Assembly: GCF_013036045.1 (NCBI RefSeq)
Contig: NZ_WTPX01000012.1
Span: 1 to 55,609, forward strand
DNA: 55,609 nt
Source: Alienimonas chondri
GTDB lineage: Bacteria; Planctomycetota; Planctomycetia; Planctomycetales; Planctomycetaceae
Direction of reading: 5' to 3'
Under the pieces are notes generated by a model. That model made no database searches and was not told the origin of the DNA. It saw nothing but the letters and a program-made list of their open reading frames with translations. Shown one piece after another: positions 3,378 to 52,089 of this stretch. Positions within the stretch are counted from its first letter, which is position 1, and every line of letters starts with the position of its first letter. The position numbers and the translations under genes are program-made.

Positions 3378-4277
3378 CTACCGGCGGTTCGCTTCCCGCA
3401 CGAGATGTGCCGCCTGCGCGGCGAGTTCCTCCTCGGTCGGTAGCTCGATCCGGCCATCGCGGGCCGCCCAGAACAGCGCCGCGCAGGTCAGGTCCGCGGT
3501 CGTGCCGGGGTTCCGCCGCGGTCGGCCGGTTCGCAGCAACCCGTCGAGCGTCCTCACCCACGGTCGTTCCGCCAGCGGTCCGTCGTCGGGACGGTGCGGC
3601 TGGTGCCGTTCCCGCACGGCGTCGCGGATCGCGATCGCCGCCCCCTCCCCGCAGCGGCGGGCGATGTGCGTGTCCGGCGTCGTCCGCAGTCGGCTGAGGT
3701 AGATCAACAGCGTCGCGTCCTCCCACGCCAGCCGGTGCGTTCGTGGAGCTTGATTGAAAACGTGTTCCAGCCCGACGACGTCGCACCAGACGCCGTTGAA
3801 GTCGGTCGCCCACGCCTTCGCCACGCCGTCTCGATCGGCCGCCAAACGCATTGTTTCCAGCAGCGTGACGGTGGGCTCGGATCGCACGTCCTGCTCCGCC
3901 GCGTCGCCCAATCCGCCGGGGTTCGCGAGTCGAATCGCTTCATACACGGCCACCGCGTCGTCGACGGTCGTCGCGGCGAGCGTTGCCGCGGGGGAGCGAC
4001 GCGGCGGCGTCGCGCACAGCGGGGCGAGCAGCAACGCGATGCCGAGGTTCACATTCGTGCCGCATTCTCGCCGCGTCTCCCGCACGCAATTCAACACGGC
4101 CGGACCGACGCCGATCGTCGCCGCGGCCGGCAGCGTCTCCGCGGCGACGCCCGCGGCGGTGACGAAATGGGCGTGGGTCAGGTCGTCGAAGTTCGCCCCC
4201 GGGTAGACGTTCCCCGGCTTGCGGGCGGTGCACTCCGTCAGGCAGGCCCGGCGGGCGAGGTTCGGCAGTTCGATCAC
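3378..4277 (-). CDS. CitG-like triphosphoribosyl-dephospho-CoA synthase
   Basis: The family transfers a triphosphoribosyl group to dephospho-CoA, making the prosthetic-group precursor of citrate or malonate lyases. Conserved segments are visible: TARKPGNVYPGANFDDLTHA near the N-terminus, TNVNLGIALLLAPL, and GLGDAAEQDV followed by PTVTLLETMRLAADRD. The GTG at 4277 overlaps the TGA of the upstream gene as GTGA and gives 299 residues; an ATG at 4307 (309 residues) is an alternative. No citrate lyase genes are nearby. From memory, related COG1767 proteins occur with tetrahydromethanopterin-linked C1 genes in methylotrophs and planctomycetes, so the real substrate may differ. Confidence 0.8.
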   Translation of the reverse strand: MIELPNLARRACLTECTARKPGNVYPGANFDDLTHAHFVTAAGVAAETLPAAATIGVGPAVLNCVRETRRECGTNVNLGIALLLAPLCATPPRRSPAATLAATTVDDAVAVYEAIRLANPGGLGDAAEQDVRSEPTVTLLETMRLAADRDGVAKAWATDFNGVWCDVVGLEHVFNQAPRTHRLAWEDATLLIYLSRLRTTPDTHIARRCGEGAAIAIRDAVRERHQPHRPDDGPLAERPWVRTLDGLLRTGRPRRNPGTTADLTCAALFWAARDGRIELPTEEELAAQAAHLVREANRR

Positions 4278-4834
4278 GGCAGCGGCGGCAGGTTCTCGGC
4301 CATCCATTCCTCCCGCTCCCGCTCCCGCTGCAACTGCTCTCGAACGAGCGTATCAGATTCAAAGTTCGGCGTGACGAGCCGCGGCGGCACGCACCACAGG
4401 TTGAGCGTGGCGGGGTCCCCGTAGGGGGTTATCGCATGCGCGATGAGCATGCTGTCGCCGTGCTGGAGCGGATGCCACTCCCCGGCGGCCAGCACTTCCG
4501 ATTGAATTGACCCCGGTAGAGTGAAGCTGGATCGGTGCCGGTATTCCCACTCGCCACGAGCCGAGTTGCCGGCGTGCCAAGTCCACTTGTCGCCGCCGTT
4601 CACCGCAGTGAGTTCGGTGATGAGCTGTGCGGCGTCGGCTTCCAGTTCAAGCGTGATCTTGCCCCCCGCCCCCGCGGGCACGACGACGTACCGAACCCGC
4701 GCCGGCGGACGGGCGTCGCGGGCGATCTTCAGGGCCAGTGCGTAGCTTGCCCAGCCGATCAGTGGGATCGCGATGAGAACCGCTGCGATCGCCGCGACGA
4801 TCTTGAGGCGACGACGAAACAAATAACGAGACAT
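4274..4834 (-). CDS. Small single-pass membrane protein, unknown
   Basis: A 186-residue protein with a basic N-terminus (MSRYLFRRRLK) and one strong transmembrane segment at about residues 11-33, then a soluble, probably periplasmic domain. That domain has a Trp-containing patch (GGDKWTWHAG) and a highly charged tail (REQLQREREREEWM). I do not recognise the family. It starts 78 bases after the fusA stop and just past a hairpin, and its stop overlaps the CitG-like gene, so it probably begins the leftward transcript running to 1067. Confidence 0.6.
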   Translation of the reverse strand: MSRYLFRRRLKIVAAIAAVLIAIPLIGWASYALALKIARDARPPARVRYVVVPAGAGGKITLELEADAAQLITELTAVNGGDKWTWHAGNSARGEWEYRHRSSFTLPGSIQSEVLAAGEWHPLQHGDSMLIAHAITPYGDPATLNLWCVPPRLVTPNFESDTLVREQLQREREREEWMAENLPPLP

Positions 4835-7446: not shown

Positions 7447-10167
<2,721 letters not shown>

Positions 10168-10401
10168 CTGGCGCGGGGTGACTGCTGCGAGTGCGATTTG
10201 ATTGCGAACGCCGAATCGCGGGACGCCATAGACCCCGAAGACCTGGACCGTTGAGGGGTCCGGTTAGACCGGGGGCGCGGACCGCGTTCGGCGGGGCGGA
10301 ACCGTATCGGCCCCGACTTCCACCCGCAACCGGTCCGCCTCCCGCTACGGGTCCGTGACAGTCTGTTTGCAGGGAGCGATCCGCACCGCTAGCGTCCGTT
10401 C

Positions 10402-11028
10402 GTGAGCCGACTCCGCGACATCTTCCGGGTTCCCGCGACCGACGAGTCTCCGCTGGTCTGGACGGCCACATTGCTGGTCGCGGTGTTGTCCCTGATCGGC
10501 TCGGTCTGGGCGTTGAGCGACGGTCAACGGGAGGGGTGGATTCTTCTGGCGTTCGGTGTCGCCGCGGGCCTTGCCGCTTGGTTCCTTCGGCCGTCGCCCG
10601 GTCGTTCAGCCGGTCAGGGCGAGGGGGATGCAGTGGGATCGGGGGCCGGCGGACTCGAGGAAGTTCCCGTCACGCTGACGCCCGAAGCGGCGAGGCAAGC
10701 GGCTGTCGCGGCCGCTCGAGGGGAGACGCCCGACCCCTGGTGGATCAGAATCTCAAGCGGCGGCATCGGTCCGAAGCCGGACGGTCAGTGGGGATACGTC
10801 CATCGATTGGATTTCACGACCGCCCCGGAATCGGGCGACGTGACGTACCGGAGCGAGGGCGTCGCCGTCGCGGTGCCGCGATCCGACCTCGACGTACTTG
10901 CCGGGACGGTTCTCGAATACCGTCGCGATCCGGGCGGCTTTGAATTTCTGAACCCGAACGACGCGGCCGTGAACGAGCGAATCTCGGCCGTCCGCGGTCT
11001 CTCCGGAAGCGAACTGCCAGCGGGCTGA
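10402..11028 (+). CDS. Membrane-anchored cysteine-less IscA/ErpA-like protein
   Basis: A 208-residue protein with two hydrophobic segments at about residues 19-38 and 45-62, a Gly/Ala linker, then a domain at about 88-190. That domain reads like the A-type Fe-S carrier fold: VTLTPEAARQA at its start, a region ending in DLDVLAGTVLEYRR, and the family-like close GGFEFLNPNDAA. All three Cys that bind Fe-S or iron in IscA/ErpA are absent, and the whole protein has no Cys. A role in Fe-S transfer by the usual chemistry is therefore unlikely; scaffolding or binding is possible. The GTG at 10402 has no obvious ribosome site. It is divergent from ppdK and upstream of a FHA gene. The domain assignment is by eye. 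Confidence 0.6.
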   Translation: MSRLRDIFRVPATDESPLVWTATLLVAVLSLIGSVWALSDGQREGWILLAFGVAAGLAAWFLRPSPGRSAGQGEGDAVGSGAGGLEEVPVTLTPEAARQAAVAAARGETPDPWWIRISSGGIGPKPDGQWGYVHRLDFTTAPESGDVTYRSEGVAVAVPRSDLDVLAGTVLEYRRDPGGFEFLNPNDAAVNERISAVRGLSGSELPAG

Positions 11029-11076
11029 TTTTTCTCCGATGGCCCTCGGGTAACAGCTATTGCGCAGATATCGAGT

Positions 11077-11460
11077 ATGCTAGTCGGAATCGCTGTCCCC
11101 CTGCGAGCCTTCCCCGTGCGTGCCGAACTCCTCCCGCCCATCGGTCCGGCTGTGCGGTTGAAACGCGACCTGACCGTCCTCGGTCGCAAGCGGGACGTCT
11201 GCGACGTGATTATCGAGCGAGAAAGCGTTTCCGCCCTGCACTGTCTGCTGGTCAAAACGGACGGGTTGCTGTTCGTCCGCGACCTCGGCAGCACCAACGG
11301 CACGACGGTCAACGGCCAGCGCATCACCCGCGGCGCCCTGCTGCCGGACGACGAACTTGGCGTGGGCGGGGTGAAGTTCCGCGTGAAGCTCGGCCCCGGC
11401 ACCGACTTCGGCGTCGGCGATGAGAGTTGCCAGACCGAGGCCGTGAACGCGATCTCCTGA
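11077..11460 (+). CDS. FHA-domain protein
   Basis: A single forkhead-associated domain fills most of the 127 residues: LTVLGRKRDVCDVIIERESV, then SALHCLLV and DLGSTNGTTVNGQRI. FHA domains bind phosphothreonine peptides, so this is a likely reader of Ser/Thr kinase signalling. An alternative GTG at 11116 would give 114 residues and begin nearer the domain. It lies 48 bases after the IscA-like gene and may be co-transcribed with it. Its stop codon is two bases from the stop of the opposing PQQ-propeller gene, with no terminator between them. Confidence 0.85.
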   Translation: MLVGIAVPLRAFPVRAELLPPIGPAVRLKRDLTVLGRKRDVCDVIIERESVSALHCLLVKTDGLLFVRDLGSTNGTTVNGQRITRGALLPDDELGVGGVKFRVKLGPGTDFGVGDESCQTEAVNAIS

Positions 11461-11462
11461 GA

Positions 11463-13193
11463 TCAGACTTCCGGCGCCTCGGGGTCGGCAGGGGCCGGGG
11501 GATCGCCCGCCGCGTTTTCATCGGCCAGCTGCACGCACACTGCTTCGGTCCCGTTGCGCCAATACAGGCGACCGCGCGAATAGGCCGCGTGGTTCCAGCA
11601 GACGCCTTCCAACAGCGTTTCTTCCGTCGCGTCGCTGTAGCGAACGATCTCCTCGAAGTCGTCCGGCGTCGCGGCGACCAACGCCAGATCGCCGTTCTCG
11701 CAGGTGACCAGCAGCATTGGCGGACCCTCCGCGGTTCCCAGCAGCAGGCACTGACCGAATCCGTAGCGGCCCTTCTTCCACATACGTTCGCCCGTCTCCA
11801 CGTCGATGCAACTCAGGATGCCTTCGTCGAGTCCGTAGACGAAGCCGTCGTGCAGGATCGCGTCATTGAATTTCAGCTTGAAGCGATTCGGCGTCCGCCA
11901 GACCTCGTCCGCGGTCCCCGTGCCGTCGTCTTCGCTCACCTCGTAGAGACCGGCGCCGGTGTTATAGCCGCTGGAGAGGAACACGCGGTCGCCGGAGACG
12001 ATCGGGACGGCCGCGTTCACCTGCGGCTGATTCGTCCAAGGCACGTCCCACAGGGTTTCACCCTCGGTGGAAAGTCCCCGGACGCCGTCCGCCTCGAAGG
12101 CGAGAATTTGCGGGACGCCGGCGATCGTCGCTTCGACGGGCGAGCTGTAGCTGCCCGGGCTGTCGCCGCTCGCCCAAAGGGTTTCGCCGGTGCTCAGGTC
12201 CAACCCCATCGCCGCGCTGTCTTCCCCGGCGGCGGCGCCGGGCAGCACGACGACGGCATCGCCGACCACCAGCGGACTGCACGCCAACCCCCAGGTGATG
12301 TTCCCCTCCTCGAACAGATCCCGCTTCCAACGGAGTTCGCCCGTCCGAGCGTCGAGGCAGGTCACGACGCCCGTGGCGCCCATGCTGTAAACCGCTCCGT
12401 CGTGAAATGTCGGCGTGCTGGCCGGGCCGTCGCCGCCGTTGGGGGCGATGCGGGAGAACCGCGTCCGTTCGCCGTGGCTCCACAGCGGAGCGCCGGTGTT
12501 CGCGTCGTAGCAGGCGATCGTTTCCTCTTCGCCGCGCTGCTCCATCGTGAAGCAGCGGTCGCCGACGATGCTGAAGCCGCCCCACCCCGGGCCGACGGGA
12601 TGTCGCCACACGGTCTCGGGGGGCTTGACGCTCCAGTCGGCGCCAATCGCGGCGTCGAGAACCTTGCCGTCCCGCTGCGGACCGAGCAGCCCCGGCCAAT
12701 CGTCCAGGCCGGCGACGACGGGCGGGGCGTCCGTCGTGTCCGCGACGGACGCGGACTCCGGATTCGCTGCGACGAAGGCGGCGATTCGCTCCTCCGCCGT
12801 CGGGGCGTATCGATATCGGAAGCCGCTGACCTGCATCGCCCCGTCCCATTGGGGGGGAAAGAGGAACAGGAGGCCCGCAGCGAGCGACGCCGCGGCGATC
12901 GTCACCGTCATGCGCGTCCCCCGCGACCAGCCGGAGTAGCCCCACAGCCAACAGACGGCCGCCAACGCCGCCGCGGAGACCGCCCCGAGCATCACCATGC
13001 TGTTCACCGTAGCATCGCGGTCGGTGAGGAGGTCGGCCAACATCCACGCGGCCAGCGGAGCGATCAGGCCGAACCCGATCGCCCAGAGGCCGATGGTCCA
13101 GCCGAGACCGCGGGAGCGGCTCGGCGGGGACGAAGCTGCCGGCGCGTCGGTCGCCGCTGCGTCACGCGGCGGAGAAATGGAATCGTCGGTCAC
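11463..13193 (-). CDS. Membrane-anchored PQQ-type beta-propeller protein
   Basis: A 576-residue protein. The N-terminal ~115 residues contain three to four transmembrane helices (GLWAIGFGLIAPLAAWML, then two more hydrophobic blocks). The rest is a repeated beta-propeller with PQQ-like blades, such as YDANTGAPLWSHGE, LDARTGELRWKRDL, LDLSTGETLWASG and IDVETGERMWKKG. The WPGLLGPQRDG entry motif is typical of large planctomycetal PQQ-repeat families. No dehydrogenase signature is visible, so a protein-binding or sugar-binding periplasmic role is more likely than enzymatic oxidation. It follows a lipoprotein gene by 78 bases in the same direction. Confidence 0.8.
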   Translation of the reverse strand: MTDDSISPPRDAAATDAPAASSPPSRSRGLGWTIGLWAIGFGLIAPLAAWMLADLLTDRDATVNSMVMLGAVSAAALAAVCWLWGYSGWSRGTRMTVTIAAASLAAGLLFLFPPQWDGAMQVSGFRYRYAPTAEERIAAFVAANPESASVADTTDAPPVVAGLDDWPGLLGPQRDGKVLDAAIGADWSVKPPETVWRHPVGPGWGGFSIVGDRCFTMEQRGEEETIACYDANTGAPLWSHGERTRFSRIAPNGGDGPASTPTFHDGAVYSMGATGVVTCLDARTGELRWKRDLFEEGNITWGLACSPLVVGDAVVVLPGAAAGEDSAAMGLDLSTGETLWASGDSPGSYSSPVEATIAGVPQILAFEADGVRGLSTEGETLWDVPWTNQPQVNAAVPIVSGDRVFLSSGYNTGAGLYEVSEDDGTGTADEVWRTPNRFKLKFNDAILHDGFVYGLDEGILSCIDVETGERMWKKGRYGFGQCLLLGTAEGPPMLLVTCENGDLALVAATPDDFEEIVRYSDATEETLLEGVCWNHAAYSRGRLYWRNGTEAVCVQLADENAAGDPPAPADPEAPEV

Positions 13194-20574: not shown

Positions 20575-20883
20575 TCAAAAGATGCCGAGCTGATCGCGGG
20601 CATCTTCGGTCATCCGCTCCGGCGTCCACGGCGGATCCATCGTGAGCGTCACGTCGCATTCGCCGACGCCCTCGACGCGTTCCACGGCCGATTTGGCGTT
20701 CTGAACGATCTGCGGGCCGGCGGGACAGGCCGGGCTGGTGAGCGTCATCGAGACCTTCGCCTCGCCGCCCTCTTCCTCGGGGGGAACGACGTCGTAGACG
20801 AGGCCCAGGTCGACGATGTTGACCATCAATTCCGGGTCGATGACCTCTTTCAGGGCATCGATCAGTTCGGATTCAGCAGGCAT
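20575..20883 (-). CDS. sufT: Fe-S assembly factor SufT-like (MIP18/DUF59)
   Basis: A 102-residue MIP18/DUF59-family protein. It begins ELIDALKEVIDPELMVNIVDLGLVYDV, with the conserved DPE and DLGL elements, and has the reactive-Cys motif TSPACPAGP. SufT proteins help Fe-S cluster maturation, especially under high Fe-S demand. It ends with the PPWTPERMTEDAR segment typical of the family. It is the last gene of the suf operon, 47 bases after sufD. Confidence 0.92.
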   Translation of the reverse strand: MPAESELIDALKEVIDPELMVNIVDLGLVYDVVPPEEEGGEAKVSMTLTSPACPAGPQIVQNAKSAVERVEGVGECDVTLTMDPPWTPERMTEDARDQLGIF

Positions 20884-20930
20884 GGGCGTGGGCGGGAAAG
20901 TCGGATCAGCAGGGAGCGTGGGAGCGAAGT

Positions 20931-22256
20931 TCAGTCGCCGATGCCGAGCTTCCGCTCGGTCGCTGCGGCGAGGGCGGCGCGGACGGGTTCGACGTTCACG
21001 CGGTCCAGCACTTTCTCAAAGAAGCCGGCGACGATCATGTGCATCGCTTCGGACTCCATCAGGCCGCGACTGCGGCAATAGAAGAGCTGCTCCTCGTCGA
21101 CGCGGCCGGTCGTGGCGCCGTGGGTGCAGCGGACGTCGTCCGCTTCGATCTCCAAGCCCGGAATGCTGTCGCTGCGGGCTTCGTCCGAGAGCATCAGCGA
21201 GTCGCAGCGCTGATATCCGTCCGTCCGCTGGGCGACTTCTTCGACCTTAATCATCCCCCGCCAAACGACCTTCGACTTGTCCCGCAGGACGGTCTTATAG
21301 AGCAAGTCGCTGTCCGTGTCCGGCGCGTTGTGCGACTGCTGGGTGTAGTAGGAAAGGTTCTGGCGACCGGTGGAGAACGTGACGCCGTTGACCTCGCCGC
21401 GGGCGCCGCGGCCGTCGAGGTGAACGTCCTGATGGACGTGCGCGAGCTTCGAACCCAAGCCGCCGACCGTCCACTGCAACAACCCGTCGCGACCGACCCG
21501 GCCGCACTGGTGAGCGAAGTGCAGCGTGTTGGTGTTCCAGTTTTGCAGCTGGGCGTACCGCAGGTTCGCTCCGTCGCCGACGAACAGTTCGACGGCTCCG
21601 ACGTGCAATCCGGCCCCGTCGCCCTGGCTGGTCGTTTCCTCAAGCAACGCAGCGTTCGCGCCGTCTTCGAGAATGACGAGCGTGTGCGAAAGGTCGCAGC
21701 ACCCCTCCCCGCTGAGCCCGATCAGGCTGTGCAACGGCTTCTCCAGCGTGACGTTCCGCGGGACGTACAGCACGGTGCCGCCCGTCCAGAACGCCCCGTG
21801 CCACGCCGCGAAGCGGTCGGCGCCTGCATCGACGCCCTTCGTCATCAAATACGGTTCGAGCAGGTCGCCGTGCGTGTTGACGAGGTCGGTCAGGCAGCCG
21901 AAGACGGCGCCGGCCTCCTTCAACTCATCCGATAATTCGACATGGGCCGAAGCGCCGTCCGCATGGACGGCCCGGCCGCCGAAGCCCTGATCGTCTCGCA
22001 TCCCGCCCGCGAACGACTGCGGGTCGGCGCCGGTCTCCGCGATCGCGAACTTCTCGGGACGCAGGAACCGCAGTTCGACCCGGCGGTATTCCTCCGCCGG
22101 GTCCGGCACGGAGAGGTGCGTGAGATATTCCGCGAACGCTTCCCGCCGCCGCTGGGTGACCCAGTCCGGCTCGGTGCGTGTTTCCAAGAAGCGTTCAAAC
22201 GCCTCGGCGTCGAACGTGGTCGGCGCCGCGACGGCGGTGGTGAGGGCGGATTTCAT
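20931..22256 (-). CDS. sufD: Fe-S cluster assembly scaffold SufD
   Basis: A component of the SufBCD scaffold complex. The 441-residue protein has a helical N-terminus and the right-handed beta-helix core shared with SufB (VLYVPRNVTLEKP, FSTGRQNLSYYTQQSHNAPDT, SKVVWRGMIKVE). The C-terminal block CTHGATTGRVDEEQLFYCRS includes the conserved His that pairs with SufB at the cluster site. It is transcribed leftward after sufB, from which it is separated by 130 bases holding a strong hairpin. Confidence 0.95.
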   Translation of the reverse strand: MKSALTTAVAAPTTFDAEAFERFLETRTEPDWVTQRRREAFAEYLTHLSVPDPAEEYRRVELRFLRPEKFAIAETGADPQSFAGGMRDDQGFGGRAVHADGASAHVELSDELKEAGAVFGCLTDLVNTHGDLLEPYLMTKGVDAGADRFAAWHGAFWTGGTVLYVPRNVTLEKPLHSLIGLSGEGCCDLSHTLVILEDGANAALLEETTSQGDGAGLHVGAVELFVGDGANLRYAQLQNWNTNTLHFAHQCGRVGRDGLLQWTVGGLGSKLAHVHQDVHLDGRGARGEVNGVTFSTGRQNLSYYTQQSHNAPDTDSDLLYKTVLRDKSKVVWRGMIKVEEVAQRTDGYQRCDSLMLSDEARSDSIPGLEIEADDVRCTHGATTGRVDEEQLFYCRSRGLMESEAMHMIVAGFFEKVLDRVNVEPVRAALAAATERKLGIGD

Positions 22257-22338
22257 AGAGACGGGGCGTTGATCCCCGACTCGGATGCGGGGCTTCGACG
22301 TGAAGAGGGTGACGATCGGGGCGTCGGAGCGGAGGCGA

Positions 22339-22377
22339 CGCCGTCGGGGCCGGGACGAAGCCCCGAGCCCGACGGCG
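22339..22377 (-). repeat. Intercistronic hairpin sufB-sufD
   Basis: Ten-bp perfect arms (CGCCGTCGGG / CCCGACGGCG) at 22339-22348 and 22368-22377, with further pairing inside. It begins about 10 bases after the sufB stop. It could attenuate sufD or protect the sufCB message from 3' decay. Confidence 0.65.
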
Positions 22378-22386
22378 AACGGGGCG

Positions 22387-23850
22387 TCAGCCGACGCTGC
22401 CTTCCATCTGGAGTTCGATCAGCCGGTTCATCTCGACGGCGTATTCCATCGGCAGCTCCTTGACGAGCGGCTCGATGAACCCGGTGACGATCATGCCGCT
22501 GGCTTCGGCTTCGCTGAGGCCGCGGCTCATCAGATAGAACAGCTGGTCTTCAGCGATCTTGGAGACGCTGGCCTCGTGTTCGAGGGAGACGTCCGCTTCT
22601 TCGCACTCGATGTACGGGTAGGTGTCGGACTTGCTCTCCGGGTCGAGGATCAAGGCGTCACAGACGACGTTCGACTTCGAACCCGTCGCCCCGTCCATGA
22701 CCTTTACCAAGCCGCGATAGGAGGCGCGACCGCCGTCCTTGCTGAGCGACTTGGAGATGATGCGAGACGACGTATTCGGCGCCGCGTGGACCATCTTGGC
22801 GCCGGCGTCCTGATGCTGGCCGGGGCCGGCGAAGGCGATCGACAGCGTCTCCCCGCGAGCCCCTTCCTCGAGCAGATGGCAGGCCGGGTACTTCATCGTC
22901 AGCTTCGAACCGAGGTTCCCGTCGACCCACTCCATCGTGGCGTCGCGGTACACGTGGGCCCGCTTGGTCACGAGGTTGTAGACGTTGCTCGACCAGTTCT
23001 GAATGGTCGAATAGCGGCAACGGCCCTCCTTCTTGACCACGATCTCCACCACGGCGCTGTGGAGCGAGTTCGAGCTATACGTCGGGGCGGTACAGCCTTC
23101 GACATAGTGAATGTTGGCGCCCTCGTCGACGATGATGAGGGTCCGCTCGAACTGGCCCATGTTCTCGCTGTTGATGCGGAAATAGGCCTGCAGCGGGAAC
23201 TTGATGTGCACGCCCTTCGGGACGTAGATGAAGCTCCCGCCGCTCCAGACGGCGCTGTTGAGCGCGCTGAACTTGTTGTCGTCCGCGGGGATGACGGTCG
23301 CCCAATACTCGCGGAACAGGTCTTCGTGCTCCCGCAGGGCGCTGTCGGTGTCGGTGAAGATCACCCCCTGATCGACCAGGTCCTGCTGCAGCGAGCCGTA
23401 GACGACTTCGCTCTCGTACTGGGCCTTCACGCCGGAGAGGTACTTCTGCTCCGCCTCGGGGATGCCGAGCTTCTCATAGGTCTTGCGAATGTCTTCCGGC
23501 ACGTCGTCCCAGCTGCGCTCCTGGCCGCTGCTGGCCTTCATGTAATAGAAGATGTCCTGGTAGTTGATCTGCTCCAGATCGCCGCCCCAGTGCGGCGTGG
23601 GCCGCTTCTCGAACAGCGCCAGGCTGTCGAGGCGATAGTCCCGCATCCACGCGGGTTCGTTCTTCATCTCCGAGATCTGCGCGACGATCTCCCGGTCCAG
23701 CCCCTTGCGGGATTTGAACGCATAGGTGTCCGTCTGATCGTGGAACCCGAAGCGATAATCGCCGAGATCCACGTCCGGCCGATCTTCGACGGGGGAGTCG
23801 AAGTCGCGGGCGGGCGAATCGGCGTTCGAAAGGTCGAGGGTGGCGGGCAT
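22387..23850 (-). CDS. sufB: Fe-S cluster assembly scaffold SufB
   Basis: The main scaffold of the SUF system, 487 residues. Typical segments are present: YAFKSRKGL near the N-terminus, [56 protein letters not shown] and [20 protein letters not shown]. The Cys of EGCTAP and the acidic EHEA region match the residues needed for cluster building. The ATG at 23850 is 64 bases after sufC. The protein is closer to the long SufB form, and no frameshift is seen. Confidence 0.97.
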
Positions 23851-23914
23851 GATCGTGCGTTCGATGGGAGGTCGTTCTAAAACGTCAATAACAATTCGGC
23901 GGCTCTGGACGCTG

Positions 23915-24742
23915 TCACGCGACTCCGGCCAACTCCGGCTCGGCGGCTTTGCGGGCGTCGGCCTCGGCGGCGACTTCGGGGTGCCGGTCGCGGACGCCGG
24001 CGTAGCCGTCGGTGTACAGCTCGGCGGCCAGTTCGGCGCCGCCGCTCTCCACGATCTTCCCGCCGAGCATCACGTGCGTGTGATCGGGCGTGTTGTAATG
24101 CAGCAGGCGGTCGTGGTGGGTGATGATCAGCACGCCCATTTTTTGCTCCTCGGCGAGCTTGGCGACGCCTTCGGAGACCACGTTGACCGCGTCGGTGTCG
24201 AGGCCGCTGTCGGTCTCGTCGAGGAACGCGAACCGCGGGCGGAGCATCGCCATCTGGAGGATCTCCATTCGCTTCTTCTCGCCGCCGCTAAAGCCCTCGT
24301 TGAGATAGCGGCGGGCGAAGGCACGATCGACGCTCAGTTCGTCCATCCGCTCGTACAGCTCGCGGCGGTACTCCCGCATGGAAATCAAGTCCCCGCCCTC
24401 TTTGCGGTCCGGGTTGCGAACGTTGGAGACGGCGTGCCGCAGGAAGTCCGCGACCTTCACGCCGGGGATCGTCACCGGATACTGAAAGGCGAGGTACAGC
24501 CCCTTACGGGCCCGCTGGTCGGCTTCCAGCTCGATGATCTCCTCGCCGTCCAGCTGCACGCTGCCTTGGGTAACGGTGTAGCCGGGGTGCCCGGCGAGGG
24601 CGTAGGCGAGCGTGCTTTTGCCGCTGCCGTTCGGCCCCATCAGGGCATGGACTTCGCTGCTGTTCAGCGTGAGATTCACGCCCCGCAGAATCGGCGTATC
24701 GCCGACGGAGACGTGCAGATCGGTAATTTGAAGGGTGCTCAT
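23915..24742 (-). CDS. sufC: Fe-S assembly ATPase SufC
   Basis: The ABC-type ATPase of the SufBCD complex. From the ATG at 24742 (275 residues) it shows Walker A (GPNGSGKST), the Q-loop region [11 protein letters not shown], the SufC-specific signature [14 protein letters not shown], Walker B with the D-loop ([13 protein letters not shown]) and the H-loop (ITHHDRLL). The 30 residues after the ATPase core form an Ala/Glu-rich tail. An ATG at 24757 would add five residues. It lies 81 bases after nuoB. Confidence 0.96.
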
Positions 24743-24823
24743 AACGCTCAAAATCACTTCGCCGGAATCGAGCCGGGGCGGCCCGATCGAAACGCTGGGG
24801 AAAACGGGGGTCGCGTCGGTCGT

Positions 24824-25546
24824 TTAGACGGCCAACGGTCGGACGGTCACGGACTCGCCTGCCAACACCGGCAGGGCGACGCGACCGGAATGATGCGGGA
24901 CGGGCAGACGATCGGCGGTCTCTCCTGACCGCTCGGCCCCTGCCGAATTCACCCCTGATCGCTTGGAGAGGGTGCGGGCGTTGATGCGGTCTTGCAGCCG
25001 CATGATTCCTTCCAACAACGCCTCGGGCCGCGGCGGGCAACCGGGGACGTACACGTCCACCGGCACCACCAGATCCACGCCTTTGACGACGTGATAGCCG
25101 TGCTTGAAGTACGGTCCGCCGCCGACCGTGCAGGCGCCCATCGCCATCACGTACTTCGGTTCGGGCATCTGCTCGTAGAGCCGACGGAGCCGCGACGCCA
25201 TCTTATGGGTCACGGTGCCGGCGACGATCATCAGGTCCGCCTGACGGGGCGAGGCCCGGAAGGCGCCGCAGCCGAACCGTTCGAGGTCCACCCGCGGTCC
25301 GCCGATGGCCATCATCTCCATCGCGCAACAGGCGATGCCGAAGGTCATCGGCCAAATCGCGTTCGCCTGCCCCCAGTTGAGGGCTTGCGACAACGTCGTC
25401 AGCACAATGTTCTCTTCGAACCGACCCTCCAGCCACCCGCCGTCGGCGGGCTGGGAGGTCGGCGGGCCGGCTGATGACGAACCAGGGAACGCCGGGACGC
25501 CGGGATCGCCGGCGAAAGCTTCGGCGGGGACGGCGGCGATACTCAT
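24824..25546 (-). CDS. nuoB: NADH-quinone oxidoreductase subunit B inside the suf operon
   Basis: A 240-residue NuoB/PSST subunit, which carries cluster N2 in respiratory complex I. All four cluster ligands are present: Cys73 and Cys74 ([10 protein letters not shown]), Cys139 (MGACTVGGG) and Cys170 (VPGCPPRPE). The N-terminal ~36 residues are a Pro/Ala/Gly-rich extension, and about 45 residues follow the conserved end (GIMRLQDRI) as a tail that looks disordered. The ATG at 25546 overlaps the sufR stop as ATGA, indicating translational coupling. No other nuo gene is in the window. It may serve complex I from a separate locus or be a stand-alone copy. Confidence 0.92.
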
Positions 25547-26211
25547 CGCGACACCTCCGCTTCGACGGAGCCGAGTTGGGTGAGGCCGGAGCCGTCGGGA
25601 GTGAACTCGCAGCAGGAGTCGCCGTCGCGGCAGCAACGGGTCAGCACGACGCCGGTTCCGAGGACGCGCTCGAACACCTTCTGTTCCAGCTCGCAGATCT
25701 GCGGGTCGTCCTCGGAGATATCCAGATAGGGGCAGTGATGCTCCCGCAGCACGGGTAGCGGGCCGGAGTCGTCGACTTCGACGGTGAAGCCATGCACCTG
25801 CAAAGCATCCCGCAGCCCCGCGAGCCGTTCCCGCAGCGCCCCCTTCCCGACCGAATCGCCGCCGTAGCGGGAGACGAGCGTGTCTTGAAGACGGCCGAAC
25901 AGGAAGGAACGGGTGCGTTCGTCCTCGACCTCGGACAGCGCCGACCACATCGCGTCGGCGAGTTCCTGGTAGTTCGAACCGAGCGCCCGCTTGCCGTCCG
26001 CGGTGAGACCGTAGAGATGTTTCGGGCGACCGCGGCCGATCTTCACCGGCTGCCGATCGATCATTCCCGCGTCAGAAAGTCGGGAGAGGCGCTGGCGAAC
26101 CGCGGTGGCGGTGACGCCGAGATCCTCGCACAATTCCTCAATCCCCGCTCGCGATCGCCGGTTCAGGCGGACGAGCAGAGTACGGTCGGCGGCGGAGACG
26201 GGGGTGCTCAC
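25543..26211 (-). CDS. sufR: SufR-like Fe-S-sensing repressor
   Basis: A 222-residue regulator with an N-terminal winged helix-turn-helix ([20 protein letters not shown], then [19 protein letters not shown]). The C-terminal domain carries clustered Cys: Cys160, Cys173, Cys193/194 and Cys200/201, fitting SufR proteins that bind a [4Fe-4S] cluster and repress suf when clusters are plentiful. It is the first gene of the sufR-nuoB-sufCBD-sufT operon, which fits autoregulation. The start is GTG at 26211 with AGGA 7 bases upstream. A candidate operator is the palindrome AAACGTTT at 26232-26239, unproven. Confidence 0.9.
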
Positions 26212-50961: not shown

Positions 50962-52089
50962 TCAGAGGGCGGCGACCAACCGATCGACTTCCTCGTTGCT
51001 CGTATAGAGGTGCGGCGCCGCACGCACGCGGCCGTGGCGGACGCGGACGACGATTCCTTCGTTCAGCAAACGCTTCGCACAGCCGTCGCTTTCGCCGTCG
51101 GGCGGGGTGAAGGAGACGATGCCGCTGCGGCGGTCGTAGCGATGGTTGCTCGCGATCGCACAGGCCGCGGAGGTCAGTCCGTCGACGAGCCGGTCGGTGA
51201 TCGCCAACAGTCGCTCGCCACGCTCCGCGGGCGGGATGGGGGCGAGCAGGTCCAAACTCGAGGCGAGGCCCGCCGCACAGGCGGTCGCGTAGGTGCCGCC
51301 CTCGTAACGGGCGGCGGTCTCTTTGAGTTCTAATTCGCTCGAGCCGTAGTTCCCCGCGTTCTGCACACTGTTCCAGCCGACCAGCAGCGGCCGCAGTTCG
51401 CTCAACCGTTCTTGTCGAACGTAAAGCACGCCGGCGCCCTCGGGGCCAAGCAACCACTTATGGCCGTCTGCACAGACGAAGTCGATCGGGACGGCGCCCA
51501 CGTCCAGCGGCAGCACGCCGAGTCCCTGAATCGCATCGAGCAGAAACAGTGCCCCGGCGTCGTGCGCGATCTGGCAGAGGTCCGCAGGATCGTTTCGCCA
51601 GCCGGTGGCGTACGCGACCCAGCTGGCTGCAACGACCCGGGTGCGAGCGTCGCAGGCGTCACGGACCTTCGCGGGGTCCAGCTGTTCGTTCTCCGCGGCC
51701 ACCTCCCGCACTTCAACGCCGCGGCTGGCGAGGTTCCGCCACGGCAGCAGGTTGGAGGGGAATTCGCACGCCGGCACGACCACGTTGTCCCCTTCCCGCC
51801 AGTCGATGCCCTCGGCGACCAGCCCGATCGCCTCCGTCGTGCTGCGGATGACGGCGATCTCTTCCTGCCGGGCGTTCAATAACTCGGCGAACCGCCTGCG
51901 GACGACCTCCACCCGCCCCCGCCACTTCGGCCAGTGCACGTCGCCGTGGTCGCGGAAATCGGCGGCGTACTCCGCCATCGCCGCCGCCGCGGGCGCCGGC
52001 AGCGGGGCGACGGCGGCGTGATCGAAGTAGGCGTACCGCTCCGTCACCGGCATCTGGGCACGGAGGGCGGCGAAGGCGTCGGACGGCAT
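50962..52089 (-). CDS. Class V aminotransferase / cysteine desulfurase-like
   Basis: A 375-residue PLP enzyme. It opens RYAYFDHAAVAPLP, has the cofactor-binding SWVAYATGW region with LLDAIQGLGVLPLDV, and the PLP-binding Lys in CADGHKWLLGPEG. The layout is that of class V aminotransferases, including selenocysteine lyase/cysteine desulfurase-like members. The mobile loop Cys expected of SufS/IscS is not obvious, so desulfurase activity is uncertain. The ATG at 52089 is preferred over a leader opening at 52203. It is divergent from the ankyrin lipoprotein gene by 80 bases. Confidence 0.85.
   Translation of the reverse strand: MPSDAFAALRAQMPVTERYAYFDHAAVAPLPAPAAAAMAEYAADFRDHGDVHWPKWRGRVEVVRRRFAELLNARQEEIAVIRSTTEAIGLVAEGIDWREGDNVVVPACEFPSNLLPWRNLASRGVEVREVAAENEQLDPAKVRDACDARTRVVAASWVAYATGWRNDPADLCQIAHDAGALFLLDAIQGLGVLPLDVGAVPIDFVCADGHKWLLGPEGAGVLYVRQERLSELRPLLVGWNSVQNAGNYGSSELELKETAARYEGGTYATACAAGLASSLDLLAPIPPAERGERLLAITDRLVDGLTSAACAIASNHRYDRRSGIVSFTPPDGESDGCAKRLLNEGIVVRVRHGRVRAAPHLYTSNEEVDRLVAAL

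Follow-up and report, generated by a model that had tools for sequence, protein, structure and literature searches.

A cysteine-free protein with an IscA-type fold and a predicted membrane anchor in the planctomycete Alienimonas chondri

The gene considered here lies in a stretch of 55,609 nucleotides from Alienimonas chondri (contig NZ_WTPX01000012.1, assembly GCF_013036045.1), the whole of which is referred to as the window. It starts with a GTG codon and encodes, in an intact frame, a protein of 208 amino acids in which a domain of the A-type iron-sulfur (Fe-S) carriers follows two predicted membrane helices. The gene stands between a pyruvate phosphate dikinase gene, which from its sequence we take to be ppdK, and a gene for a small FHA-domain protein, and a suf cluster is found further along the window. 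The features are as follows.

7447-10167, minus strand: ppdK, left neighbour, 93% identical in the same-genus genome G001
10338-11116, no strand: segment missing from G001, roughly 780 bp here and about 69 bp there
10402-11028, plus strand: gene for the cysteine-free A-type-fold protein, predicted to be membrane-tethered
10450-10509, plus strand: predicted membrane helix 1, residues 17-36
10519-10587, plus strand: predicted membrane helix 2, residues 40-62
10588-10662, plus strand: low-confidence linker, residues 63-87 (pLDDT below 50 at residues 64-85)
10663-10971, plus strand: A-type carrier (IscA/HesB-fold) domain, residues 88-190, from profile, PDB sequence search and model
10786-10788, plus strand: CAG codon of Gln129, at the carrier Cys1 position
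10927-10941, plus strand: DPGGF, residues 176-180, a shortened hairpin also found in planctomycete fusion proteins
10972-10980, plus strand: Asn191-Glu192-Arg193, at the presumed carrier Cys-Gly-Cys site
11077-11460, plus strand: FHA-domain protein gene, right neighbour, 48 bp downstream of 10402-11028
20575-26211, minus strand: suf cluster with genes for SufT-like, SufD, SufB, SufC, and SufR-like proteins

In its sense frame the gene has a coding-like GC content at the three codon positions (0.72/0.57/0.75). The third-position value of 0.75 is below the 0.84-0.91 of the three nearest genes, which says little because equally low values (0.74-0.78) occur elsewhere among the ORFs of the window. 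Two reverse ORFs overlap the gene, and a misannotated antisense ORF was rejected on their codon-position GC, which is unlike that of the adjoining genes. An RNA element was likewise rejected, with no Rfam match above the gathering score at 10000-11500. No promoter-like site was found for the gene when scored against the sigma-70 consensus. The absence of cysteine from all 208 residues is unremarkable alone, since five neighbouring proteins hold only 0.3-1.7% cysteine; the notable point is the replacement at the three positions where the family carries its cysteines. The first-pass annotation had described this ORF and its missing cysteine triad correctly, and had named an assembly problem as the alternative. 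An assembly or frame error concealing the cysteines is unlikely, because the frame is intact and neither strand carries a Cys-Gly-Cys codon motif at 10351-11150.

Homology to the A-type carriers was seen in several sequence comparisons. The TIGR00049 profile matches residues 90-187 (E 1.5e-6) with 28.4 bits, under its cut-off of 58.8 bits, and Pfam, including PF01521, gave no match to the full-length sequence (E up to 10) or the isolated domain (E up to 1). A PDB sequence search returned DsrR as the best match (E 3e-6), followed by E. coli IscA (YfhF; E 1.3e-4). Profiles built without the protein scored it at 32.7 bits (21 carriers), 34.0 bits (5 planctomycete fusion domains), and 51.0 bits (8 planctomycete lipoproteins), compared with at most 7.0 bits for 1000 shuffled controls. 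Judged from these sequence comparisons, the resemblance is not due to chance. Identity to any sequence in the tree described below is at most 35% over 99 columns, and the core fold residues NPN and GGF are retained.

Structure prediction points the same way. An AlphaFold2 model of the domain built with 56 homologous rows reached a pLDDT of 79.2 and a pTM of 0.72; these rows were of carrier type and favour a carrier fold. With this model, all 10 Foldseek matches at E<=0.001 were A-type-fold chains (SufA at 7.2e-7). Nine of them are named carriers, DsrR, or matches to the carrier profile, and the remaining one belongs to the YneR entry 9a4q. VIA-align superposed the model on IscA (Z 13.1, rmsd 1.9 Å over 95 residues), SufA (Z 11.9), DsrR (Z 11.4, rmsd 2.8 Å over 103 residues), and 9a4q_B, taken as YneR (Z 8.5). 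A single-sequence model of the full-length protein was poorer (pLDDT 62.4, pTM 0.37) and showed the main strands and helices in the same order; IscA was its top Foldseek match at a non-significant E of 0.15, and its VIA-align list held no IscA. The IscA/ErpA-like fold proposed at first pass is thus confirmed at the level of a predicted model, one made with carrier-type rows.

The Cys-Xn-Cys-X-Cys ligands of A-type carriers are absent from the protein. In the alignment, DGQWGY stands in place of GGCSGF, with Gln129 at the Cys1 position (which we take to be Cys35 of IscA) and a 5-residue insertion ahead of it. The CxC site was placed by its offset from the NPN motif. On this reading the three cluster cysteines would be replaced by Gln129, Asn191, and Arg193, the latter two by that offset. 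Given the known chemistry of the family, no carrier-type cluster binding is expected because no thiol is present, and the protein would neither bind nor carry Fe-S clusters in the manner of a carrier.

The fold could still serve a carrier of another kind, one which works at the membrane and binds an alternative metal or ligand through other residues. The same fold, kept here, holds the cluster in IscA (1x0g). A histidine (His135) lies six residues past the former Cys1 site, and an insertion stands ahead of that site. Against this, the protein has no cysteine anywhere and its former ligand positions are Gln, Asn, and Arg, and arginine is unusual at a metal site. The first-pass annotation had suggested that the carrier fold was repurposed, perhaps to bind a protein or an alternative metal; nothing found points to the metal site, which is a very improbable reading. 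Repurposing for protein binding holds up better, with the fold kept, the triad gone, a membrane tether predicted, and a canonical carrier encoded elsewhere in the genome.

That canonical three-cysteine A-type carrier is found at G000:C305, and it can cover the housekeeping job. Because it has been kept, a repurposed and perhaps protein-binding fold is the best reading of the cysteine-free protein. The genome had also been credited with a complete suf operon, which is confirmed in part. The window does contain the SufR-, SufC-, SufB-, SufD-, and SufT-like genes together, and a SufS-family gene lies apart from them at 50965-52089 and scores below every cut-off. The canonical carrier suggests a further possibility, namely that the cysteine-free protein heterodimerises with it, tethering it at the membrane to assist Fe-S delivery. 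Mouse ISCA1 and ISCA2 are reported to form a heterocomplex (PMC5437272). This is nevertheless improbable: G001 has a carrier above the TIGR00049 cut-off but no such tether, and the gene is neither beside the carrier gene nor within the suf cluster.

Some observations on A-type carriers at large were made alongside. Carriers above the TIGR00049 cut-off were found in 39/40 planctomycete genomes. One planctomycete contig (L129, JACOUH010000279.1) encodes at 3698-4546 an isc-type operon with IscR-like, cysteine desulfurase, IscU-like, and carrier genes. An ORF beside or inside its IscU-like region reads, as we take it, like an intein or homing endonuclease. Relatives of A-type carriers are also encoded on at least 567 viral contig stretches (tblastn). 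The count of 39/40 contrasts with a 2009 survey, which reported A-type carriers to be missing from almost the entire PVC group (PMC2682760).

The region ahead of the domain is predicted to be a membrane anchor. Two membrane helices had been claimed at first pass, and both reappear in the single-sequence model and as hydropathy peaks of 2.04 and 1.68. Arg3, Arg5, and Arg9 precede the first helix and Arg63 and Arg68 come after the second. With arginines flanking both predicted helices, the N-terminus should lie inside and the A-type domain most likely in the cytosol. The sequence therefore suggests that both ends of the protein, and hence the domain, face the cytosol. This would give an A-type domain which is stripped of its three cluster ligands and sits behind a two-helix anchor.

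Comparison with relatives shows where the gene is found. In G001, the only same-genus genome in the comparison set, ppdK and the FHA gene directly adjoin and the gene between them is absent; the flanks of the extra segment align there at 89% and 87%. Three further genera show the same ppdK-FHA adjacency (L056, L060, L062, all of this family), and their pieces gave no convincing match to the protein. For the other 10/14 loci, no ppdK was found in the piece fetched. Counted from the FHA gene, four relatives (G001, G003, G004, G009) have it adjoining ppdK. An FHA match (E<=0.001) was present in 21/21 genomes, that is, in 20 relatives and the window's own, although FHA proteins are numerous and orthology is apparent for the best matches alone. 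None of these 20 relatives matched the cysteine-free protein. No terminator-like site was found between the gene and the FHA gene. The two are possibly co-transcribed, and by its position alone the FHA protein is a candidate partner.

Planctomycete orthologues, which the first-pass annotation had proposed to compare, were sought at several depths. Within the family (170 genomes) two genomes matched, the window's own and G768, the latter with a fusion protein, leaving no orthologue among the other 169. A search of 59 genomes gave three matches, of which one was the window's genome and the other two had canonical carriers. At class level, 81/397 genomes had a match at E<=0.01; among the matches listed, none but the window's own spans both anchor and domain. 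Those fetched and read were canonical carriers or lipoproteins, and many weaker ones lie beyond these. In a class search with query A3, 23 of the 24 non-window matches were canonical (GGC[ST]G and CGC) and one, L130, was odd. The window itself was the sole match in the phylum at E<=1e-28 (1/392). A scan of genome_contigs yielded 595 pattern matches, none of which was confirmed as an orthologue, though exact short patterns can miss distant ones; scanning again with a lipoprotein as query returned a canonical carrier only.

Since the gene is absent from G001, and ppdK and the FHA gene adjoin there and in three genera, a gain in the window's lineage is the simplest explanation, and the gene was probably acquired recently and in this lineage specifically. 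A plasmid or viral origin was rejected, with no plasmid match at E<=1e-5 and none in viral_contigs by pattern scan, as was a mobile-element insertion, since the extra segment is not bordered by direct repeats. An imperfect inverted repeat (10272-10291 / 10324-10343, 75%) reaches the left edge of this segment.

Such a recent gain could be drifting, in which case a carrier-like domain joined to a membrane anchor would be evolving with weak or absent selection and without a settled function. The presence of the gene in 1/170 family genomes and its absence from G001 fit this, as do a third-position GC below that of the three nearest genes, a very long branch in the tree, and the lack of a recognisable promoter (sigma-70 consensus). 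However, the 208-residue frame is intact and its codon-position GC still looks coding, and NPN and GGF are kept despite an identity of at most 35%, which would be hard to achieve if the fold were not selected for. Neutrality or decay of the gene has to be allowed for, because selection on the domain would have to be measured against an orthologue and none was found; drift is nonetheless rather unlikely, and the fold repurposed for protein binding is the preferred reading.

Further analysis revealed planctomycete relatives in which the cysteines are thinned out. A-type proteins with a lipoprotein signal occur in at least 8/397 genomes of the class (L071, L068, L076, L096, L103, L104, and L107 in family f3, and L073 in family f11), their lipobox being called by eye. 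Cys1 is present in all eight, the CxC in none (8/8 and 0/8). In the tree, seven cluster together (99/99) and L073 lies elsewhere. L071 is the best class-search match outside the window's genome (E 1.8e-9). The L071 and L068 genes lie downstream of WD40-repeat genes judged similar by eye, and a neighbour of L068 begins, as far as we can judge, like a planctomycete cytochrome-type protein. These lipoproteins resemble the cysteine-free protein in being envelope-anchored by prediction and in having lost the CxC, but they have a lipobox rather than two helices and have kept Cys1. Because of the lipobox, their domain should be outside the cytoplasm.

A second set consists of fusion proteins of about 400-460 amino acids, found in 5/170 family genomes: L128 (G768), L130 (G167), L280 (G767), L281 (G110), and L282 (G330). 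A better conserved second domain, marked by an NGDG motif, follows the A-type domain. Two of the five, L130 and L280, retain Cys1, which the others (L128, L281, L282) have lost, and the CxC is missing from all (0/5). The shortened GGF hairpin of the protein from the window recurs in L128, L130, and L280, which also carry a lipobox; in its place L281 has GAF and L282 GAY. The protein from the window differs in its length and lack of the second conserved domain; no fusion protein occurs in its genus. Having no cysteine, it also has no lipobox, unlike 8/8 lipoproteins and 3/5 fusion proteins.

Its place among these relatives is read differently by different methods. In the tree it groups with the fusion proteins (94/86, not starred; 91/87 in another run) on a very long terminal branch (1.91-2.06). 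Grouping it with the lipoproteins is not rejected by the AU test (p 0.144), and the profile scores given above favour the lipoproteins. The sequences are suggestive of kinship to one or the other, but since tree, profile score, and AU test diverge, descent from either is not claimed. It is conceivable, if somewhat doubtful, that planctomycetes repeatedly converted the Fe-S carrier fold to cluster-free interaction domains anchored in the envelope, with cysteines lost stepwise from three to one to none and the protein from the window as the end point. Neither exported planctomycete A-type domains nor a membrane-helix anchor on an A-type domain was found in the open-licence literature.

Among known systems, IscA, SufA, and ErpA share the domain fold and core motifs but keep Cys1 and the C-terminal CxC, which the protein from the window, with its predicted anchor, lacks. 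DsrR of Allochromatium vinosum (PDB 2k4z) is closer: it has the IscA fold with ligand cysteines missing, and both proteins have PDG at the Cys1 motif. DsrR presumably differs as a 125-residue chain without a membrane anchor. It is tied to Dsr sulfur oxidation, reported from four phyla, and described as acting without cluster delivery. The protein was rejected as a DsrR orthologue, as this genome has no dsrA above the cut-off; the dsrA profile gave two weak matches (29.0 and 19.8 bits vs 392.85), and 8/14 control genomes also match under the cut-off.

PdhI/YneR of Bacillus subtilis (PDB 9a4q) has the same fold as the domain, although it is not among the seven PDB sequence matches of the protein. 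It is reported, on the basis of crosslinking, modelling, and mutants, to inhibit pyruvate dehydrogenase E1 by occluding the active-site entrance (PMC10090944). It differs in having this target, and no membrane anchor is mentioned for it. Cysteine loss in A-type proteins as such is already known, since one A-type copy in chicken is reported to have lost the cysteine motif (PMC7144353).

By analogy, the protein most likely works like DsrR or PdhI/YneR, as a tethered binding module. The A-type domain would dock on a putative partner protein at the inner membrane and modulate it. The parallel loss of cysteines in the fusion proteins counts in favour of repurposing. The computations establish homology and fold, the missing triad, the canonical carrier elsewhere in the genome, and the lack of the gene in G001, whereas the anchor with its orientation, the failure to bind metal, protein binding, and expression are inferred. 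The full proposal is that the A-type fold, freed from Fe-S binding, is expressed and serves at the inner membrane as a tethered module that binds another protein, and that its gene is a recent lineage-specific gain; belief and doubt in it are evenly balanced.

The protein is missed by profile-based annotation, with no match in Pfam and a score below cut-off in NCBIfam. The exported planctomycete A-type proteins provide a natural series for asking what roles the fold has besides holding a cluster. If the proposed function is correct, the protein from A. chondri would add a membrane-tethered form to the few known cluster-free uses of the Fe-S carrier fold.
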